DNA of 64,000 nucleotides, taken from NCBI GenBank assembly GCA_937873695.1, contig CALMYL010000013.1, positions 62,001 to 126,000 of the forward strand, in the 5' to 3' direction. Source of the DNA: an uncultured Ignavibacteria bacterium (GTDB lineage: Bacteria; Bacteroidota; Ignavibacteria; Tepidaquicellales; OLB5). This document shows positions 10,676-63,295 of the stretch, in pieces (the stretch's first letter is position 1; every line of letters begins with the position of its first letter). Both the position numbers and the translations under genes were made by a program. The notes under the pieces are model-generated. The model ran no database searches, had not been told where the DNA came from, and saw only the letters and a list, made by a program, of their open reading frames with translations.

Positions 10676-11905
10676 ATGCTGAAATCGCTGTCAAAAATTA
10701 CGCGCAAGATCTCTTCGCATATTAACAGGAATGTTACAAAACAGAACCAGGGGCATATTATCGCTCTGGGCGGCGGAGGATTTTCAGATCAGCCCGATAA
10801 TCTGTTGCTTGATGAGTACCTGTTACTTCAGACCAATAAGGCAAAACCCAAAGTATTATTTCTGCCGACTGCAGGGGGCGACCATGAAGACTACATCGCG
10901 AAATTCTATAGGGCATATAATAAATTTAACTGCAAACCAACGCACCTTTCGCTTTCAAAAAAAACGATTCCTTTTAAAAAACTGGAGCAGTTAGTTTTAA
11001 ACCAGGACCTCATATTTGTCGGCGGGGGGAGTCCGAAGTTTTTAATGCAGGTATGGCGTAAAACGGGGCTTGACCGCATCATAAAAAAAGCATGGAAGCA
11101 GGGTATTGTGCTGAGCGGTATGTCAGCAGGTGCAATTTGCTGGTATGAAGATGGCTACCAGAATCCCAAAGATGATATATGGCGGAGAATAAGCTGCCTC
11201 GGATTCCTTGAAGGAAGCTTTTGCCCCCATTTTGATAAACGCGGTGAGCTGCGCAGCGCGTACAGGAAAATGATATCTTCAGGTGAAATAGACAGCGGTT
11301 ACGGCGTGCAGGATGGTGTTGCGCTCCACTACGTTGGCACCGAATTGAAATACATAATATCAAGCTCACCTGATGCAAAGGCTTATATTGTTAAGAAGGC
11401 TGCGTTCAGGGTCACTGAAAAAGAACTGAAGCCAACTTATCTTGGAATACTTCATGAAGCGCATAAGCTTGATTCAAAGTCAGAAGCTAATGATGATGAT
11501 TTGCTTATTGATAATTCAGAAATTGTCCGCCAATATATCAAGCTCATAAATGAGCATGATATTACGGGTCTGCTTGCAATGACCTCAGGTGATGCTGTGT
11601 TTATTGATTCAATGGGAATTGATACAAAGGGTGTAACTAATATGCGCAAAGCATGGGATGTTCTGCTTACATTCTTCCCTGATTACACTGTGATAGTAAA
11701 AGATATCATCAGCAAGAACGGAATGGTCGCGGTTTTCGGTACAGCAAAAGGTACACTAGCCACCGATGGCAAAATACTTGCCGAGAATAAGTTCGAAATT
11801 CCGGCATCATGGACAGCCACAGTTGAGAACGGCAAGATTACCAAATGGCGCGTGTATGCTGATAACCAGCCCGTGAGGAAGCTGATTGAGAAGAATAGAA
11901 AGTAA
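10676..11905 (+). CDS. Peptidase E (S51) fused to a C-terminal SnoaL-like domain
   Basis: A 409-residue protein with two domains. Residues about 25-255 are an S51 peptidase/cyanophycinase-like domain: IIALGGGGF (28-36), LFLPTAGGD, IFVGGGSP, the nucleophile elbow SGMSAGAICW with Ser150, then CPHFDKR (His185) and GYGVQDGVALHY. Residues about 280-400 resemble SnoaL/NTF2-like folds (EIVRQYIKLINEHDITGLLAMTSGDAVFIDSMG ending KITKWRVYADN). The two are joined by a charged linker rich in S, D and E. The peptidase family cleaves Asp-X dipeptides or related substrates; the SnoaL part may be an enzyme or a small-ligand pocket. No signal peptide, so cytoplasmic. The stop is clean and the frame uninterrupted, so the fusion appears genuine. 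Confidence 0.82.
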   Translation: MLKSLSKITRKISSHINRNVTKQNQGHIIALGGGGFSDQPDNLLLDEYLLLQTNKAKPKVLFLPTAGGDHEDYIAKFYRAYNKFNCKPTHLSLSKKTIPFKKLEQLVLNQDLIFVGGGSPKFLMQVWRKTGLDRIIKKAWKQGIVLSGMSAGAICWYEDGYQNPKDDIWRRISCLGFLEGSFCPHFDKRGELRSAYRKMISSGEIDSGYGVQDGVALHYVGTELKYIISSSPDAKAYIVKKAAFRVTEKELKPTYLGILHEAHKLDSKSEANDDDLLIDNSEIVRQYIKLINEHDITGLLAMTSGDAVFIDSMGIDTKGVTNMRKAWDVLLTFFPDYTVIVKDIISKNGMVAVFGTAKGTLATDGKILAENKFEIPASWTATVENGKITKWRVYADNQPVRKLIEKNRK

Positions 11906-12108
11906 AACGTTATCCCGCTAAGCAGAAGAGCGGGACCGCAAAAAACGCGGAAAGGCAAAAAGCAAAAGGTAAAAATTAACATATTGTAATCTAAGCTAGT
12001 TGATTAGTTTTTTATTTAAATTTACTCTAGAGTTTCTTAATGACAAATTTTTTAAATTATCAATGGATTGGATCTACAAAAATCATAAAAAAATTATGTA
12101 TATTATAA

Positions 12109-12257
12109 TTGCCACGACCTTTAGGTCGTGGCCTACATAGCAAATTTAATCCGGCTTTAGCCGCTAACACATAATCAATTGTTGGGTTTTAAAAGCTTAA
12201 GGGCTAAAGCCCATCTTATATTAATCTTTTAACCACGACCTAAAGGTCGTGGCAATT
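12109..12257. repeat. Composite nested-palindrome element, copy 1 (about 150 bp)
   Basis: Outer arms are each a near-perfect palindrome built on CCACGACCT/AGGTCGTGG (12112-12131 and 12232-12252). They flank two inner hairpins based on CGGCTTTAGCCG (about 12152-12163) and GGGCTAAAGCCC (about 12201-12212). The same architecture recurs at 29587-29716, and the outer hairpin alone occurs at 13586-13615. The 431-nt gap 11906-12336 contains nothing else I recognise; the purT promoter must lie within or after the element. Confidence 0.8.
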
Positions 12258-12336
12258 ATTTTAAAGAAACAACCATAATAAAGATTAAGTTTTTTGCTGG
12301 TGAATTCGAAATTTCAATTTTAGAAATAATCTATTC

Positions 12337-13503
12337 ATGATAAAAAAAATTCTATTGTTAGGCTCAGGTGAATTGGGCAAGGAGTTTGTCATCGCCGCGA
12401 AGCGGCTGGGGCAGTATGTTATTGCTGTTGATTCATACAACAATGCCCCGGCGCAGCAGGTTGCAGATGAACGCGAAGTGATAAATATGCTCTCGGGTGA
12501 TGAACTTGATAAGATTGTTGCTAAACATGAACCCAATATCATCGTTCCTGAAATTGAAGCAATACGTACAGAAAGGTTTTACGATTACGAAAAACAGGGG
12601 TACCAGGTTGTGCCTAGCGCAAGAGCCGCTAATTTCACAATGAACCGCAAAGCTATCCGTGATCTTGCCGCAAAAGAACTTGGACTTAAAACCGCGCCTT
12701 ATAAATACGCTTCAACACTTGATGATTTCAGAAGTGCCGTAAAAGAGATTGGGACTCCCTGTGTTGTTAAGCCGCTAATGTCATCATCAGGCAAGGGGCA
12801 ATCGGTAATTAAAAATGAAGATGATATCGATAAGGCATGGGAGTATGCTTCAACAGGCGGCAGGGGTGATTACAATGAAGTTATAATAGAAGGGTTCATT
12901 AACTTCTTTACTGAAATTACACTGCTTACAGTTACGCAGAAAAACGGCAAAACCCTGTTTTGCCCGCCAATCGGCCACAGGCAGGAGCGCGGCGATTACC
13001 AGGAAAGCTGGCAGCCCTGCGCAATATCACCTGAACACCTTTCGGAAGCACAAATGATGGCGGATAAGGTCACGCGCGCGCTTACGGGTTTTGGCATATG
13101 GGGAGTTGAGTTTTTCCTTGCCTCAGACGGGGTGTATTTCAGTGAGCTCTCACCCCGCCCGCACGATACAGGCATGGTTACACTTGCCGGCACACAGAAC
13201 TTCAATGAGTTTGAGCTTCATTTAAGGGCAATACTGGGACTTGATATCCCTGAAATCACTTTAGAGCGTGCCGGCGCAAGCGCCGTGGTGCTTGCGGGTG
13301 ATGATAATTCAAACCAGCCCGTTTACACCGGACTAGAAGACGCCGCCAAATATCCAAAATCTGATATAAAGATTTTCGGTAAACCCAATACACGCAGGTA
13401 TCGCAGAATGGGAGTCGCCCTGGCAAACGATAGCCCGGATGCATCGACCGATGAGCTTCGCAAGAAGGCAAAAGAAATTGCAGGTAAGATAAACGTTAAT
13501 TAA
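12337..13503 (+). CDS. purT: Formate-dependent phosphoribosylglycinamide formyltransferase
   Basis: A 388-residue ATP-grasp enzyme that makes formyl-GAR from GAR, formate and ATP in purine synthesis (E. coli PurT is 392 residues). Visible features are [12 protein letters not shown] (6-17), [24 protein letters not shown], the ATP-grasp lid [14 protein letters not shown], the ligand segment [26 protein letters not shown] and the closing [13 protein letters not shown]. The gene is isolated, with palindromic repeats on both sides and no other purine gene in the window. Confidence 0.95.
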
Positions 13504-13585
13504 ATTTAACCTCACCTCAAAACTTCTTACCAAAAAGGAAGTAATGAGAAAAGCTGTGAGTTTTTATATCATATTAAAATAACAT

Positions 13586-13615
13586 AATTGCCACGACCTA
13601 AAGGTCGTGGCAATT
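13586..13615. repeat. 30-bp perfect palindrome of the CCACGACCT family
   Basis: AATTGCCACGACCT followed by its reverse complement with a two-base centre. It matches the terminal hairpin of the composite elements at 12109-12257 and 29587-29716, and lies in the 179-nt gap between purT and a methyltransferase gene. With copy 1 it brackets purT. It could also act as a weak terminator, though no T-run follows. Confidence 0.8.
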
Positions 13616-13682
13616 AAGATATAGAGTCAATATATTTATTTGAACTTGTTATGCAAAAAGATAAGCTTAGTTAGTTACAATC

Positions 13683-29459: not shown

Positions 29460-29566
29460 GAATTTTCCTATGGAAAATTCTCCTCGCAAAGGTAATATAG
29501 TTATTGATTAGCCACGCTCTTTAGAGCGGGGAAAAGAAGCAAAAAAATAAGGGGACTTCAGTCCCC
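29460..29566. repeat. Cluster of unrelated short palindromes
   Basis: GAATTTTCC-TAT-GGAAAATTC (29460-29480), CGCTCTTTAGAGCG (about 29516-29529) and GGGGACT-TC-AGTCCCC (29551-29566) follow one another within 107 bases, immediately before composite element copy 2. With the neighbouring repeats they fill the 482-nt gap 29298-29779, where I see no gene. Confidence 0.65.
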
Positions 29567-29586
29567 GATAAATATTTTTATGATTA

Positions 29587-29716
29587 TAGCCACGACCTTT
29601 AGGTCGTGGAAAGATTTTGAAAAAAATACGGCTTTAGCCACTGATAAAAATTTAAGTTAAGGGCTAAAGCCTGGTTTTTGGTTAATTCCAACCACGACCT
29701 AAAGGTCGTGGCAATT
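29587..29716. repeat. Composite nested-palindrome element, copy 2 (about 130 bp)
   Basis: Same plan as copy 1: outer palindromes CCACGACCT-TT-AGGTCGTGG (29590-29609) and CCACGACCT-AA-AGGTCGTGG (29692-29711), with inner GGCTTTAGCC (about 29630-29639) and GGGCTAAAGCC (29661-29671). The spacer sequences differ from copy 1 but the hairpin order is conserved. Confidence 0.8.
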
Positions 29717-29727
29717 AAAAATTTCCC

Positions 29728-39105: not shown

Positions 39106-39138
39106 AAACCTGGCAGGTCTTAAAGACCTGCCAGGTTT
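39106..39138. repeat. 33-bp perfect palindrome AAACCTGGCAGGTCTT
   Basis: A 16-base arm (39106-39121), a single central A, and its exact reverse complement (39123-39138). A degenerate relative (GCCTGCCAGGTTT) lies at about 48755-48767. It lies in the gap between the VOC and esterase genes, which converge, so it may also terminate both transcripts. Confidence 0.75.
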
Positions 39139-42985: not shown

Positions 42986-44698
42986 TTACTTAACCAGCAC
43001 CATTTTCTTCATATCACTGTACTTCCCTGACTCAAGTTTATAATAGTATATTCCTGAAGCATAATTTCCCGCACTGAACTCAACTTCATATGTACCTGCT
43101 GAAACAACTTCATTCACAAGCACTGCTACCTGCTGTCCTGTTGAATTATATACTGTGAGTTTTGCATTCACGCCGCCTTTGGCAATATCAAATCTTATCC
43201 TTGTAACCGGATTGAACGGGTTCGGGTAGTTCTGCATGAGTTCAAACTTATCGGGTACATTTGTTGAGATCGGCTCGATGCCTATTACCTGGTTCAATGC
43301 TCCGCGTGAATCAATTAGCCCCCATCCGAAATAATTATCAAATCCCGGTGTATCTTCACTTGCGGGTCCGACCTGGTCACGCGCTGAATTCTTCAATGCA
43401 TTATAAACATCGTTATAAGTAAGTGAAGGATTCACACTGTAAAGAAGAGATATTACCCCTGAAGTCATAGGTGTTGCCTGCGAAGTGCCGCACCAATAGC
43501 TTGTAGTGTTTGGATTGTTATACACCAGTCCAAGTATCATTTCTCCCGGTGCAGCAAAATCAATATGCGGACCGTAGCTGCTTCCGCCGCCCCAGCAGAA
43601 AGGAACAGCACGGAACATCCTGTTGTTGATAGCGCCAATGGCTATCACATTACTAAGCCCTGCAGGATAATATGTAACATTGTTGTTGTTATTCATCATG
43701 CATGCAACCACTATTCTGCCGTTATTGTATGCATAAGTTACAGCATCGGCAAGTCCCTGGTTATATGATTGTCCCCCTACGCTCATATTCAGCACTTTCG
43801 CGCCGTTATCAACAGCGTATGTGATCCCTGAAACAAACCATGAATAAAAACCTGAATTTGATGAGTTGAGTATTTTTACCGGCATTAGTCTGCAGTTCCA
43901 GTTAACACCTGCCATCAATGAGCCATTGTTGCCTTTTGCGCCAACTATGCTGCCTACGTTTGTACCGTGTCCCTGGTCATCTGTTGGATCGTTATCGTTA
44001 TTTGCATAATCATAACCCTGAACAAGTCTGCCGGAAAATTCCGGGTGACTCAGCGGCATACCTGAATCCAGGATGGCAACAAGAACATTTGTGCCGGTGG
44101 TAATATCCCATGCATTAACAGCATTTATATCACCTCCTGAAGTTCCCGCAACCCCGTTTATGGTTTGGCCTGTATTGCGCAAACCCCATTGATTTGAAAA
44201 TGACGGGTCATTTGGAACTACCGATGAATTTTGAGTTGTATTATATCCGGCAAAATAACCCGCTGAGTATCCTATATGATCAAATACAGCATATTCAACC
44301 TGTAGGTTGCGGGAAATATACTCTCGCGCATTTTCAATTGTTGTTATACCTGAGTTTATTTCAATAACAAATATTCTTTCAATGCCCCCGGCAAGCGGTG
44401 TAAAATCTGCATCCGGTTTAACGGCTTTGATTTTCCTGATATTGCATTGCTGCATGAAAAGATTAAGTACTGAATTCCTGCTTATCTTCTGTGAGCCTGC
44501 TTCGAGACTTTCACTTAAATTCTTTGGCGTGAATTCGCGGGCTTCCCTGAATAATTCAGTGCCCTGTTTGAATTTTATGATGAGGGTACTATTGCTGTAT
44601 TCATCAGAGAGCACTGTGGATGCCTGCATAACAGTAAGCAGTAAGAATGCAGTGAATATTTTGCTGAACAAATTGGTGAATAGGTATGACGGTTTCAT
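42986..44698 (-). CDS. Secreted subtilisin-like serine protease with T9SS sorting domain
   Basis: A 570-residue S8 protease. A signal peptide (about 1-31) is followed by a roughly 120-residue propeptide, the catalytic domain with the triad Asp (VAILDSGMPLSHP), His (DQGHGTNVGSIVGA) and Ser (CGTSQATPMTSGV), and the C-terminal sorting module (NYPNPFNPVTRIRFDI to KKMVLVK). Full length is consistent with an active secreted protease. The family motif AAGNxG is replaced by CMMNNNNN. It is inserted between the two halves of the kynurenine pathway genes. Confidence 0.92.
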   Translation of the reverse strand: MKPSYLFTNLFSKIFTAFLLLTVMQASTVLSDEYSNSTLIIKFKQGTELFREAREFTPKNLSESLEAGSQKISRNSVLNLFMQQCNIRKIKAVKPDADFTPLAGGIERIFVIEINSGITTIENAREYISRNLQVEYAVFDHIGYSAGYFAGYNTTQNSSVVPNDPSFSNQWGLRNTGQTINGVAGTSGGDINAVNAWDITTGTNVLVAILDSGMPLSHPEFSGRLVQGYDYANNDNDPTDDQGHGTNVGSIVGAKGNNGSLMAGVNWNCRLMPVKILNSSNSGFYSWFVSGITYAVDNGAKVLNMSVGGQSYNQGLADAVTYAYNNGRIVVACMMNNNNNVTYYPAGLSNVIAIGAINNRMFRAVPFCWGGGSSYGPHIDFAAPGEMILGLVYNNPNTTSYWCGTSQATPMTSGVISLLYSVNPSLTYNDVYNALKNSARDQVGPASEDTPGFDNYFGWGLIDSRGALNQVIGIEPISTNVPDKFELMQNYPNPFNPVTRIRFDIAKGGVNAKLTVYNSTGQQVAVLVNEVVSAGTYEVEFSAGNYASGIYYYKLESGKYSDMKKMVLVK

Positions 44699-44805
44699 TT
44701 CACCTCCGGTTTGATGTTATTTGCAGAATAAATTAATGATCAAAAATAATAAAATTTTTAAGTTATTGCTTTATCTAAAATTACGGATGAGCGTGTGTGC
44801 CTGTT

Positions 44806-44837
44806 CATGAACAAGGGGTTGCAACCCCTTGTTCATG
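44806..44837. repeat. Perfect 32-bp palindrome CATGAACAAGGGGTTG
   Basis: Sixteen bases followed immediately by their exact reverse complement, with no loop. The GAACAAGGGGTT core is shared with 42894-42921. Degraded relatives follow at about 44893-44921 (GGGACAATGTGTTGCAACGCCTTGTTC). Perfect symmetry with no loop makes simple terminator function unlikely. Confidence 0.85.
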
Positions 44838-44859
44838 AAACTCCTTACTTTGAAACTCT

Positions 44860-48740: not shown

Positions 48741-48811
48741 AAGAAACTTCTCGAAGCCTGCCAGGTTTATAAAAGACCGGCTGGTAATCACCACATACAT
48801 AAAATGATTTG

Positions 48812-48863
48812 CCACGGTCTTTAGACCGTGGACATGAAGATAATATAAAGCGGCTTTAGCCGC
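48812..48863. repeat. Two hairpins, CCACGGTCT/AGACCGTGG and GCGGCTTTAGCCGC
   Basis: A CCACGGTCT-TT-AGACCGTGG palindrome (48812-48831) and GCGGCT-TT-AGCCGC (48850-48863) repeat the left outer-plus-inner hairpin order of the composite elements at 12109 and 29587, with changed sequence. The second hairpin ends 9 nt before the kmo start and would lie in the 5' leader. A degenerate CTGCCAGGTTT piece lies just upstream. Confidence 0.7.
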
Positions 48864-48872
48864 AATTGAAAT

Positions 48873-50243
48873 ATGCAAAATATCACTATCGTTGGCGCCG
48901 GACTTGCCGGCTCGCTGCTTTCAATCTACCTCGCCAAAAAGGGCTATAGCGTAAATGTATATGAGCGCCGCCCTGATATGCGCAAAGCTGATATAAGCGC
49001 AGGCAAATCAATTAATCTTGCTTTATCAACACGCGGCATACACGCACTGAAGGAAGTAGGACTCTATGATGAGATCAAAAAAATATCTATCCCTATGTAC
49101 GGCAGGATGATACATGCTCTTGACAGCTCTACATCGCTTCAGCCATACGGCAAAGATAAAACAGAATATATCAATTCCGTTTCAAGGGGTGACTTAAATA
49201 AAAAGCTTATGGATCTTGCCGAAGGGTTTCAATCGGTGAAATTTCATTTTAACATGCCCTGCACATCTATGAATATGGATAAGAATGAAATTTATTTCAG
49301 AAATGATGAAACCGGAAATGCTGAAGCAATAAAGAGTGATATTACTATAGCGACTGATGGAGCTACTTCACCTGTAAGAATGGAAATGCTGAAAGTTCCC
49401 AGGTTTGACTTTAAACAGGAATACGAAAATTACGGTTATAAGGAGCTTCACATTCCGCCAAATGCTGATGGAACTTTTAAGATGGAGACCAATGCCCTGC
49501 ATATATGGCCCCGCGGTTCATTTATGCTGATTGCTTTGCCCAATATGGATGGCAGTTTTACGTGTACATTATTTCTGGCATATGATAAGTCATTAGGCGG
49601 TGAGAGCAGCTTTGAGGCTTTGAGCAGCAAAGAGAAAGTTCAGCAATTCTTTGAAAAGAATTTCCCGGATGCAATAGAACTGATGCCGGAATTACTTGAA
49701 GATTTTTTTGGTAATCCGACAGGTACTTTGATAACAATAAAGTGTTTTCCCTGGTGCATTGATGGAAAACTGGCTATGCTGGGTGATTCCGCCCATGCGA
49801 TTGTTCCTTTCTTCGGACAGGGGATGAATGCCGCTTTTGAAGATTGCACCTACCTTAATGAATGCATTAATAAATATCCCGGTGACTGGAACAGTATTTT
49901 TAGTGAGTACCAGAATTTGCGGAAAGTAAACACTGATGCTATTGCAGATCTTGCACAGGAGAATTTTGTTGAAATGCGCGACCTTGTTGCTGATGCGCGT
50001 TTCCAGCTGAAAAAGAAAATAGAATCACTTTTGTATAAAAAATTTCCTGATACTTTCATTCCTAAATATACAATGGTTACTTTTCTGAGGGTACCTTATT
50101 CAGTAGCATTGGAAAGAGGCAGAATACAGGAATCAATACTTCACGAATTGAGTGAAGGCGTTTCAGAGCCTGAGGGAATCAACATGGAAAAAGCGCAAAG
50201 GCTGATCACCGGCAAACTGATTAAGCTTGAACTGATCACCTGA
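48873..50243 (+). CDS. kmo: Kynurenine 3-monooxygenase
   Basis: A 456-residue FAD-dependent monooxygenase that hydroxylates kynurenine at position 3. Residues 4-14 are the dinucleotide fold (TIVGAGLAGSLL), followed by YERRPDMRKADISAGKSINLALSTRG, and the GD motif GDSAHAIVPFFGQGMNAAFEDC. Length matches bacterial KMO (for example Cytophaga and Pseudomonas). The last 8 nt overlap convergently with the gene on the opposite strand (50236-51909). A hairpin precedes the start. Confidence 0.95.
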   Translation: MQNITIVGAGLAGSLLSIYLAKKGYSVNVYERRPDMRKADISAGKSINLALSTRGIHALKEVGLYDEIKKISIPMYGRMIHALDSSTSLQPYGKDKTEYINSVSRGDLNKKLMDLAEGFQSVKFHFNMPCTSMNMDKNEIYFRNDETGNAEAIKSDITIATDGATSPVRMEMLKVPRFDFKQEYENYGYKELHIPPNADGTFKMETNALHIWPRGSFMLIALPNMDGSFTCTLFLAYDKSLGGESSFEALSSKEKVQQFFEKNFPDAIELMPELLEDFFGNPTGTLITIKCFPWCIDGKLAMLGDSAHAIVPFFGQGMNAAFEDCTYLNECINKYPGDWNSIFSEYQNLRKVNTDAIADLAQENFVEMRDLVADARFQLKKKIESLLYKKFPDTFIPKYTMVTFLRVPYSVALERGRIQESILHELSEGVSEPEGINMEKAQRLITGKLIKLELIT

Positions 50244-61184: not shown

Positions 61185-63295
61185 TTTATCAACACCATCC
61201 TTCTGGATTCTACAAACCCTTCACCGGTTAATACATAAAAATACACGCCGCTTGAAAAATTACTGCCGTCGAAATCAAATGAATATGTGCCGGGGATGAG
61301 GAAGTCATTCACGATAACTGAAACTTCTCTTCCCAGAATATCGTATATCTTAAGCGATGCGTTCATAGCTTTGGGAATATCGAACTTTATTTTCGTACTC
61401 GGATTAAACGGATTTGGATAATTTTGGAATAAAGTGAAAGTATGAGGTACAATATAACTTTGCGGCTCAACGCTTATGAGCACACCGCCACCTGTTGTGG
61501 TTTTGATAATTTGGCCGTTAAAACCTGCTCCGTAGCCTGTAATGCTATCAGTGAAATAGAGACTTTCACTATTTGAAGCATTTATACAATAAGTACGATA
61601 CCAATTATCTCCTCTGTTAGTAGTTTTGTAAATTGAGTTATTTGAAGAAGCTGCATAACCTATACCGGTGGTAGGGAAGTGAATTGAAAATATTGAAGAT
61701 GGGAAAATATTATAGCTCCAGCTCAAACCATAGTCGGTAGATCTGTATATTACTCCTTTACTGCTGTATTTATAACCTGCTGCATATATATAATTATCTT
61801 CTGTACAAAAAAGTTCTTGAACAACCATTATAGAGTCCAATTGAGTGACTGTCCAGCTATTTCCGCGATTTGTTGTTTTCAATATTTTACCAATACCACC
61901 ATAAGAACCTGAAGCACTGGCAAAACCGGTAATATTGTTTACAAATTTTAAATCCTGAAATGCGCCATGCAGTAATCTTTCCATGTAAATCCAATTTACC
62001 CCGCCATTAATAGTCTTATAGAAAAAACCCTCGTAAGTTACTAAATATCCTGTATCAGCTGATGGAAAAGATATTACTGGTGATGAATAATTTTGACCAA
62101 TATAATATATATTCCAGTTCAAACCGCAATTTGTTGTCTTTGCAATTTTCCCCGGATTTATTGCTGCATAACCGGTATTGTTATCAATAAATGTCAATTC
62201 ATCAACAAAAGGTCCGGCGATGCTGTCCAGTCCCAAATAGTAATCAGTCCAGTTTATGCCCCTATTGGTAGTTTTATAAATTTTGTTTTTGCCGCTGATA
62301 AATCCGGTTAATTGGTTCAGGAAAGTAACAGAAGTAAAATTATCATATATTCCATTAGTAATTGAATACCATGTGGTACCCTGGTTGGTGGTTCTGTAAA
62401 AAAAGTTTGTTTTTTCAATATCAAAACCAATGCCTTCATTTAAATTTTTCAGAAAAGTATTGTGTGTCGTATTTACAGTATTCCAGTTTAATCCGCTATC
62501 TGTTGTAGTAACTATAGAATATGGACCTTTAATATAACCTGTGTTATTATCAAAAAATATTAACTTTTGTGGAATAAAAGGGATGGCTGATATTGTATCC
62601 CATGTTAAACATCCATTACTGGTTTTAATTAATAAAGACCTGCTTGAGAGAATCAAAGCCAATCCTTTTTGTTGATCAAAAAAATACATATTAGGTATAT
62701 TGTATTTAAGACTAGTGTTAATACTATTCCAATTTAATCCGCTATTTGTGGTCTTATAGATGCTGCATACATTTGTGTTTGTTCTAAAACCGGAACAATA
62801 ACCTGTGTTTTGGTCAATAAAATATATAAATGATAAGAATTCATCCAGATAAGCTATTAAACTTGAATTCCAGCTTTCCCCTAAATCCATGCTTAAAAAA
62901 ACTTCATCGTTTCTAATCCCATATATCAAATTATTGCTGTGATAACCCATAACAGAATCAACCGGCGCGGGTATATACCGCCAGTTATTTCCGCCGTTAG
63001 TGGTCTTTAATATTCCATTGGTTGAATTGGAAAATCCTGTCAGCTCATTAATAAAAATTATCGATTCACCGCATTCTTTATTTTGCATTACCGAGAACGA
63101 TACCCCGTTATCTGTAGATTTCATCATTGTGCCGCCATAACCTGATACATACACGATGTTATTTCCGGCATATTCTGCATCAGTTAAATAATTTCCCTGC
63201 GGCAAAGGATTAAGCCAGAACCAGCCATCCTGAGAATGGACATTTAATGAAAATGATAAACAAATTAAAGAAAGGATAAAATATAATTTTTTCAT
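61181..63295 (-). CDS. T9SS Ycf48/BNR-like beta-propeller protein, copy A
   Basis: A 704-residue paralogue of the preceding protein, with a different signal peptide (MKKLYFILSLICLSFSLNVHS) but then the same QDGWFWLNPLPQGNYLTDAE segment and about 90 shared residues, a divergent propeller centre, and the same C-terminal sorting module ending RMVLIK. The two genes are translationally coupled (ATGA). The conserved ends and variable centre suggest duplication with later gene conversion or shuffling. A surface or released binding protein is likely; the ligand is unknown. Confidence 0.85.
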   Translation of the reverse strand: MKKLYFILSLICLSFSLNVHSQDGWFWLNPLPQGNYLTDAEYAGNNIVYVSGYGGTMMKSTDNGVSFSVMQNKECGESIIFINELTGFSNSTNGILKTTNGGNNWRYIPAPVDSVMGYHSNNLIYGIRNDEVFLSMDLGESWNSSLIAYLDEFLSFIYFIDQNTGYCSGFRTNTNVCSIYKTTNSGLNWNSINTSLKYNIPNMYFFDQQKGLALILSSRSLLIKTSNGCLTWDTISAIPFIPQKLIFFDNNTGYIKGPYSIVTTTDSGLNWNTVNTTHNTFLKNLNEGIGFDIEKTNFFYRTTNQGTTWYSITNGIYDNFTSVTFLNQLTGFISGKNKIYKTTNRGINWTDYYLGLDSIAGPFVDELTFIDNNTGYAAINPGKIAKTTNCGLNWNIYYIGQNYSSPVISFPSADTGYLVTYEGFFYKTINGGVNWIYMERLLHGAFQDLKFVNNITGFASASGSYGGIGKILKTTNRGNSWTVTQLDSIMVVQELFCTEDNYIYAAGYKYSSKGVIYRSTDYGLSWSYNIFPSSIFSIHFPTTGIGYAASSNNSIYKTTNRGDNWYRTYCINASNSESLYFTDSITGYGAGFNGQIIKTTTGGGVLISVEPQSYIVPHTFTLFQNYPNPFNPSTKIKFDIPKAMNASLKIYDILGREVSVIVNDFLIPGTYSFDFDGSNFSSGVYFYVLTGEGFVESRRMVLIK

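Follow-up and report, generated by a model that had tools for sequence, protein, structure and literature searches.

We found that the nested palindromes upstream of purT and near 29.6 kb in the window, a 64-kb stretch of DNA (positions 62001 to 126000 of contig C13 in a genome of 3.78 Mb and 30 contigs, hereafter G000), are very probably non-autonomous, gene-less derivatives of a small IS200-like mobile element. This reading is carried by the presence of the same ends on intact and gene-less forms at the same sites, by an internal deletion that leaves a remnant of the transposase gene tnpA, and by a hairpin type that is linked to the transposase clade. A first-pass annotation of the window had taken such composites to imply that their structure is under selection or that they are mobilised together as one unit; its reading is supported in outline, with tens of copies, covarying arms and, in relatives, a Y1 gene between the same half units.

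Hairpin elements of the window

Both composites consist of a directional half unit and its inverted copy. In order, the half unit has the tetranucleotide (A/G)T(T/A)G, an outer hairpin (8-bp arms, TTTA or TTCA as the loop), approximately 20 nt of spacer, and a smaller inner hairpin of the pattern (G/C)GGCTTYAGCC(G/C). The centers of the outer and inner hairpins are mostly 35 to 37 nt apart (39 nt in one case), and the letters of the spacer vary freely. Half units were found singly, as inward pairs (the composites of the window), or collapsed into one solo hairpin. The composites first described at 12109–12257 and 29587–29716 read as annotated, and so do the lone outer hairpin (13586–13615) and the half version (48812–48863), for which we give the extents 13585–13616 and 48805–48867; a sister-type half unit (29505–29569) is added here. 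The elements are as follows.

12105–12259, no strand assigned: composite 1, gene-less, two half units facing inward, flanked by purT (12337–13503) and by an ORF that ends at 11905
12108–12111, plus strand: ATTG, a guide-like tetranucleotide where the left outer hairpin has its foot, from per-position conservation over 174 CCACGACC units
12112–12131, plus strand: left outer hairpin (HP1) of composite 1, CCACGACC-TTTA-GGTCGTGG, 8-bp arms, loop TTTA
12152–12163, plus strand: left inner hairpin (HP2) of composite 1, CGGCTTTAGCCG
12183–12199, plus strand: tnpA 3'-end remnant of composite 1, TGGGTTTTAAAAGCTTA, compared with TGGATTTGAAAAGCTTA in intact genes (shuffle test)
12201–12212, minus strand: right inner hairpin (HP2') of composite 1, GGGCTAAAGCCC
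12233–12252, minus strand: right outer hairpin (HP1') of composite 1, followed by CAATT (AATTG mirrored)
13585–13616, no strand assigned: solo hairpin formed by fusion of the two outer hairpins, AATTG and CAATT flanks both retained
29505–29569, plus strand: half unit of the sister subfamily, CCACGCTC/GAGCGGGG hairpin and GGGGACTTCAGTCCCC
29583–29718, no strand assigned: composite 2, gene-less, with an orthologous composite in G005 and a solo hairpin in G002
29590–29609, mirror partner 29692–29711: outer hairpins of composite 2, CCACGACC-TTTA-GGTCGTGG
29630–29639 and 29662–29671: inner hairpins of composite 2, GGCTTTAGCC and GGCTAAAGCC
48805–48867, plus strand: lone half unit, CCACGGTC subfamily (arms CCACGGTC), directly before the start codon of the ORF at 48873

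The solo hairpin at 13585–13616 takes its left flank from one end and its right flank from the other. The half unit at 48805–48867 is shared with G005 and G009 and is missing at the orthologous site in G001, G002, G003, G004, G008, G010, and G012. Other palindromes were also seen in the window. Upstream of the minus-strand ORF 42986–44698 lies a perfect 36-nt palindrome (44804–44839, TTCATGAACAAGGGGTTG|CAACCCCTTGTTCATGAA), and an intergenic perfect 16-bp inverted repeat with a 1-nt loop, AAACCTGGCAGGTCTT, is located at 39106–39138; CCTGGCAGGTTT pieces resembling the latter recur in the intergenic DNA of relatives.

Genome copies and covariation of the arms

The outer hairpin occurred 37 times in G000 with up to three mismatches, and the reversed control pattern did not occur at all; the half-unit covariance model R1 gave approximately 75 matches (E ≤ 1e-5, overlaps removed). 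The hairpin is therefore not a product of chance, and the further genomic copies that the first-pass annotation called for are present. By arrangement, the R1 half units comprised 10 inward pairs, 5 outward pairs, 3 close same-strand pairs, and approximately 41 singles; the genome counts come from searches and from individual stretches. Nearly all elements (29 of 30) lay outside ORFs of at least 150 aa; of positions drawn at random from these loci, by contrast, 77% were inside one. At its foot, the hairpin carried ATTG in most copies and GTAG in some subfamilies, and TNAATTG was the only conserved border of the element.

The arms paired in 98% of the alignment cells, with 138 double-change cells in 83 distinct copies, and one pair of the arm alignment displayed three-way exchanges among A-U, C-G, and G-C. 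The covariation score was 0.390, as against 0.116 after shuffling, with none of 500 shuffles reaching the observed value and slid partners scoring at most 0.105. The score is biased in favor of pairing by an alignment fitted to the structure, but the gap between the scores and the three-way exchanges are still plain. These values bear out the conservation of hairpins among copies. A compensating change from CCACGACC to CCACGGTC had also been claimed, and this stands only in part: the arms do covary genome-wide, but the two sequences belong to different elements (subfamilies), and arms at orthologous sites showed a single change in 159 positions and no double change, so that the arms are seen to be conserved in place and not compensated.

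Variants of both hairpins were observed. An inner hairpin with CTCCGAAGGAG and TGCCTTTGGCA stems inside its loop (CGGCTT-TCTCCGAAGGAGTGCCTTTGGCA-AGCCG), predicted to fold as a three-way junction, had at least eight copies in G000 (loci L335, L339, L340, L342, L344, L357, L362, and L364). An outer hairpin with a loop of approximately 20 nt (CTTGACTGGTTCCTCAGTTA) in place of TTYA was found in two species, at L033:1397–1478 and downstream of purT in L095. Near-identical gene-less copies were considered as a sign that the composites had recently moved by themselves; this was rejected because the homology continues into terminal repeats of another kind, AACAGGCTGTTGAAAAA or AGTNTGTCTCAAAAC. Four composites that are almost identical to one another (L209, L213, L281, and L294, all from one Ignavibacteria genome) lie within a larger repeat with the ends AACAGGCTGTTGAAAAA / TTTTTCAACAGCCTGTT. 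Four near-identical copies of approximately 120 bp in G000 (L348, L351, L352, and L355) carry terminal repeats AGTNTGTCTCAAAAC and one half unit each, and are a recently spread small element with another type of end.

The transposase gene and same-site series in relatives

A search of 59 relatives was made for Y1 transposase genes. In the same-genus genomes G001 (L087) and G006 (L088), a tnpA gene for a 144-aa Y1/HUH protein was located exactly between two half units, and the outer hairpins CCACGACC were identical to those of the window. The intact element thus reads (A/G)T(T/A)G, outer hairpin, approximately 20 nt, inner hairpin, tnpA (approximately 430 bp), inner hairpin', approximately 20 nt, outer hairpin', and the mirrored guide. 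The encoded protein matched Pfam Y1_Tnp (2e-26) and contained the motifs DHxH and YxxxQxxHH, the latter without the YxxNP of the REP-associated family. A Y1/REP-associated transposase had been named as a search target, and the Y1 gene was indeed found between the half units in relatives, but it passed the NCBIfam IS200 equivalog (67.7 bits, cut-off 55) and missed the REP-associated model NF047646 (30.1 bits, cut-off 80). An AlphaFold model of the protein (pLDDT 82.8) was nearest in fold to the TnpA proteins of ISDra2 and IS608, and the E. coli REP transposase (4er8) was also matched. The signature Y---Q--HH, published for TnpA-Y1 subclass 1.2 (PMC6006769), whose typical size is approximately 148 aa, was present in 49 of 55 genes (140–161 aa).

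Inverted repeats of at least 13 nt, a threshold set because shuffles reach 12 nt, spanned the flanks of 38 of the 55 tnpA genes and of none of 69 non-overlapping control ORFs. The ends were identical over up to 28 nt in the clade of the present element, and the clade with CTTYAG hairpins had an SH-aLRT of 99. Mapped on the tnpA tree, the hairpin family changed 8 times, compared with 29.5 times when shuffled (0/200); this was a quick tree with labels assigned by pattern, and 8 is an upper figure, as L227 and L066 agree with their clade when the flanks are read. Other subclass 1.2 tnpA genes, at L016 (C12:47 kb), at L018 (C20:28 kb), and in many relatives, had different palindromes arrayed on their flanks (CGACCCC..GGGGTCG, GTCCCGTAGGGAC, GCTCCGTAGGAGC, and ACCCCGAAGGGGT). 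These arrays suggest that many common repeats of Bacteroidota and Ignavibacteriota belong to a subclass 1.2 tnpA system.

The sites flanking purT held different forms of the element in sister species. Upstream of purT, at the site of composite 1 (12105–12259), the full tnpA element was present in G006 (L088/L100), gene-less composites in G000 and G005 (L095), only the left half in G007, and nothing in G012, with other repeats or none elsewhere. Downstream of purT, at the site of the window's solo hairpin, we found the full tnpA element in G001, a composite together with a full element in G009, solo hairpins in G000 and G006, and nothing in G012. The site at 29.6 kb held a composite in G000 and G005 and a solo hairpin with matching flanks in G002, where the 23-nt overlap of the BLAST pieces is what a deletion from one hairpin copy to the other would leave. 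In G002, G003, G008, and G011 (L096, L098, L099, and L093), a different repeat, CCTCACCC...CTCTCC...GGAGAGGGG...GGGTGAGG, occupied the same intergenic places around purT.

In composite 1, the remnant TGGGTTTTAAAAGCTTA adjoins the right inner hairpin and matches TGGATTTGAAAAGCTTA at the 3' end of intact tnpA over 17 nt, with 0 to 2 of 2000 shuffles being as good against L148 and L298. The match was also found in the G005 copy, and the G009 composite matched weakly. From these same-site differences between species, we read a probable order of decay from the full element through the gene-less composite and the half unit to the solo hairpin. The series fits loss in several lineages after an ancestral insertion, and it may also have come from re-insertion at a favored site. 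Exact empty-site junctions were not found in the window against G009, G002, G011, and G005, the intergenic DNA being too diverged, except for the composite and solo forms at 29.6 kb. A cognate tnpA was found neither in G000 nor in G005; the G000 copies are therefore probably immobile remnants or are moved in trans by another TnpA.

By analogy with work on IS608, ISDra2, and REP sequences, the outer hairpins would be recognised by TnpA in single-stranded DNA, the foot tetranucleotide would direct cleavage to CA or CT, and strand transfer would then move the unit.

The element also occurs in public genomes. The exact 23-mer TTGCCACGACCTTYAGGTCGTGG was present in at least 109 stretches, and the hosts among the matches listed were mostly Bacteroidota and Ignavibacteriota; Calditrichota, Fidelibacterota, Nitrospirota, Acidobacteriota, and Edwardsbacteria appeared there in one or two cases each, of which single cases may be binning errors. 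In 80 loci among the matches listed, the spacing of inward hairpins was two-peaked, at 61–181 bp (22 pairs) or 511–619 bp (7 pairs); all seven long-spaced pairs enclosed an intact Y1 gene, and the short-spaced pairs had no gene. R1 matches were found in 46 of 119 relatives up to the class level (E ≤ 1e-5), and tnpA and its ends recur as one block at different sites and in several phyla. Orthologous sites in L269 and L248, which are Ignavibacteria records, probably put G000 itself within this class or close to it.

Rival readings and known systems

The conservation of the arms in place bears on how the copies are maintained. In 10 distinct comparisons of orthologous copies, from which duplicates of one site were removed by hand, changes were found at 1 of 159 positions in the outer-hairpin arms, 5 of 40 in the loops, 32 of 143 in the spacers, and 173 of 809 in the flanks. 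The copies were picked for intact hairpins in G000, which is a bias that does not extend to the other species, and two imperfect or excluded hairpins (the left one of the G005 purT copy and the right one at C14:5218) add three changes, bringing the arms to approximately 1–2%. Plain decay does not predict conserved arms in G000, where no cognate tnpA was found; either recent loss of the gene, another TnpA acting on the copies, or use by the host would account for them. Host use is central to a reading of the elements as canonical REP/REPIN sequences, kept for a host function (mRNA ends, gyrase or nucleoid-protein binding) and spread by a domesticated RAYT, with any mobile past being secondary. 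The tens of intergenic copies, the inverted pairs, the tetranucleotide at the hairpin foot, and the near-invariant HP1 arms beside changing spacers and flanks are all consistent with it. However, the transposase passes the IS200 model and misses the REP-associated one, its tyrosine motif is YxxxQxxHH instead of YxxNP, the foot is mostly ATTG with GTAG in some subfamilies only, and tnpA and its ends form one block at different sites in several phyla, and we consider this reading unlikely.

Perfect palindromes with bases that covary among copies would also be expected if template switching between the arms corrected each palindrome, with neither selection nor use by TnpA being involved. Such self-correction should yield double changes at the background rate, but none was detected in the 10 distinct orthologous site pairs, which makes this explanation distinctly improbable. 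Even harder to credit is the proposal that the hairpins are structured RNA elements (attenuators, terminators, or riboregulators) of the downstream genes. Half units do end a few nucleotides before start codons (at 48873 and at purT of G007), but Rfam at the gathering threshold gave no family in the 64-kb window, no T-run followed HP1 in the sequences read at the window elements, and upstream of the same gene the element is present, absent, or of differing form across sister species; moreover, the composites are mirror-symmetric, and the intact form encloses a transposase gene.

The gene-less derivative of an IS200-like element, which we prefer, shares features with several known systems. Like IS200/IS605 elements (IS608 and ISDra2), the intact form has a Y1/HUH TnpA of approximately 145 aa with a single catalytic tyrosine, hairpins at both ends, a modelled fold nearest to ISDra2/IS608, and a protein passing the NCBIfam IS200 model. 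The known ends, however, are non-inverted, with strand-specific left and right hairpins, whereas here they are mirror-inverted double hairpins that are copies of one half unit; in addition, tnpA is of low copy number, and gene-less and solo forms far outnumber intact ones. REP/REPIN sequences with RAYT (TnpA-REP) are alike in their short perfect palindromes, the loop TTYA, the foot tetranucleotide, the inverted pairs, the many intergenic copies, and the same repeats around the transposase gene; the Marinomonas REPtron Mb has perfect palindromes with the loop TTTA, a GTAG foot, and cleavage at CA or CT (PMC8266576). By contrast, the present TnpA is of the IS200-like subclass 1.2, tnpA and its ends form one block, the foot is mostly ATTG, and the full unit has a second small hairpin approximately 35–39 nt inward (center to center).

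TnpA-Y1 subclass 1.2 agrees in the Y---Q--HH motif, the length of approximately 140–160 aa, the low copy number, and Bacteroidetes among its hosts (PMC6006769). For this subclass, REP was listed as "no" and IS properties as not shared (Quentin et al. 2018, PMC6006769), whereas the genes described here are flanked by clade-specific hairpin repeats. TIRtrons (TIRYTs) are likewise Y1 genes with terminal inverted repeats, of which some are in part self-complementary and recur in the genome, but the sections consulted describe them for RAYT-like proteins and contain no double-hairpin unit of the present type (Di Nocera et al. 2013, PMC3733652). MITEs are similar as gene-less derivatives that keep the ends of an autonomous element and arise by internal deletion with a gene remnant; they differ in that the mobiliser here would, by analogy, be a single-strand Y1 enzyme, that no target duplication is expected, and that the element collapses further to a solo hairpin.

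In the literature searched, we found no known DNA substrate of TnpA subclass 1.2 and no paper describing the hairpin letters; the association of subclass 1.2 tnpA with hairpin ends is new as far as that literature goes. We put forward tentatively, as a possibility with somewhat less than an even chance, that these elements follow a third mode, intermediate between IS200 transposons and REP systems. In this mode, tnpA and its inverted double-hairpin ends would make up an autonomous, mirror-ended element that travels as a single unit across Bacteroidota, Ignavibacteriota, and neighboring phyla, and the host would later keep the gene-less hairpins for a separate function. The near-frozen arms in genomes without a matching transposase point to such a host role. 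The defined anatomy, the clade-to-hairpin code, and the small intact copies provide a candidate DNA substrate for the IS200-like TnpA subclass 1.2, and the single-site series of whole transposon, composite, half unit, and solo palindrome bears on the long-standing question of REP origin.
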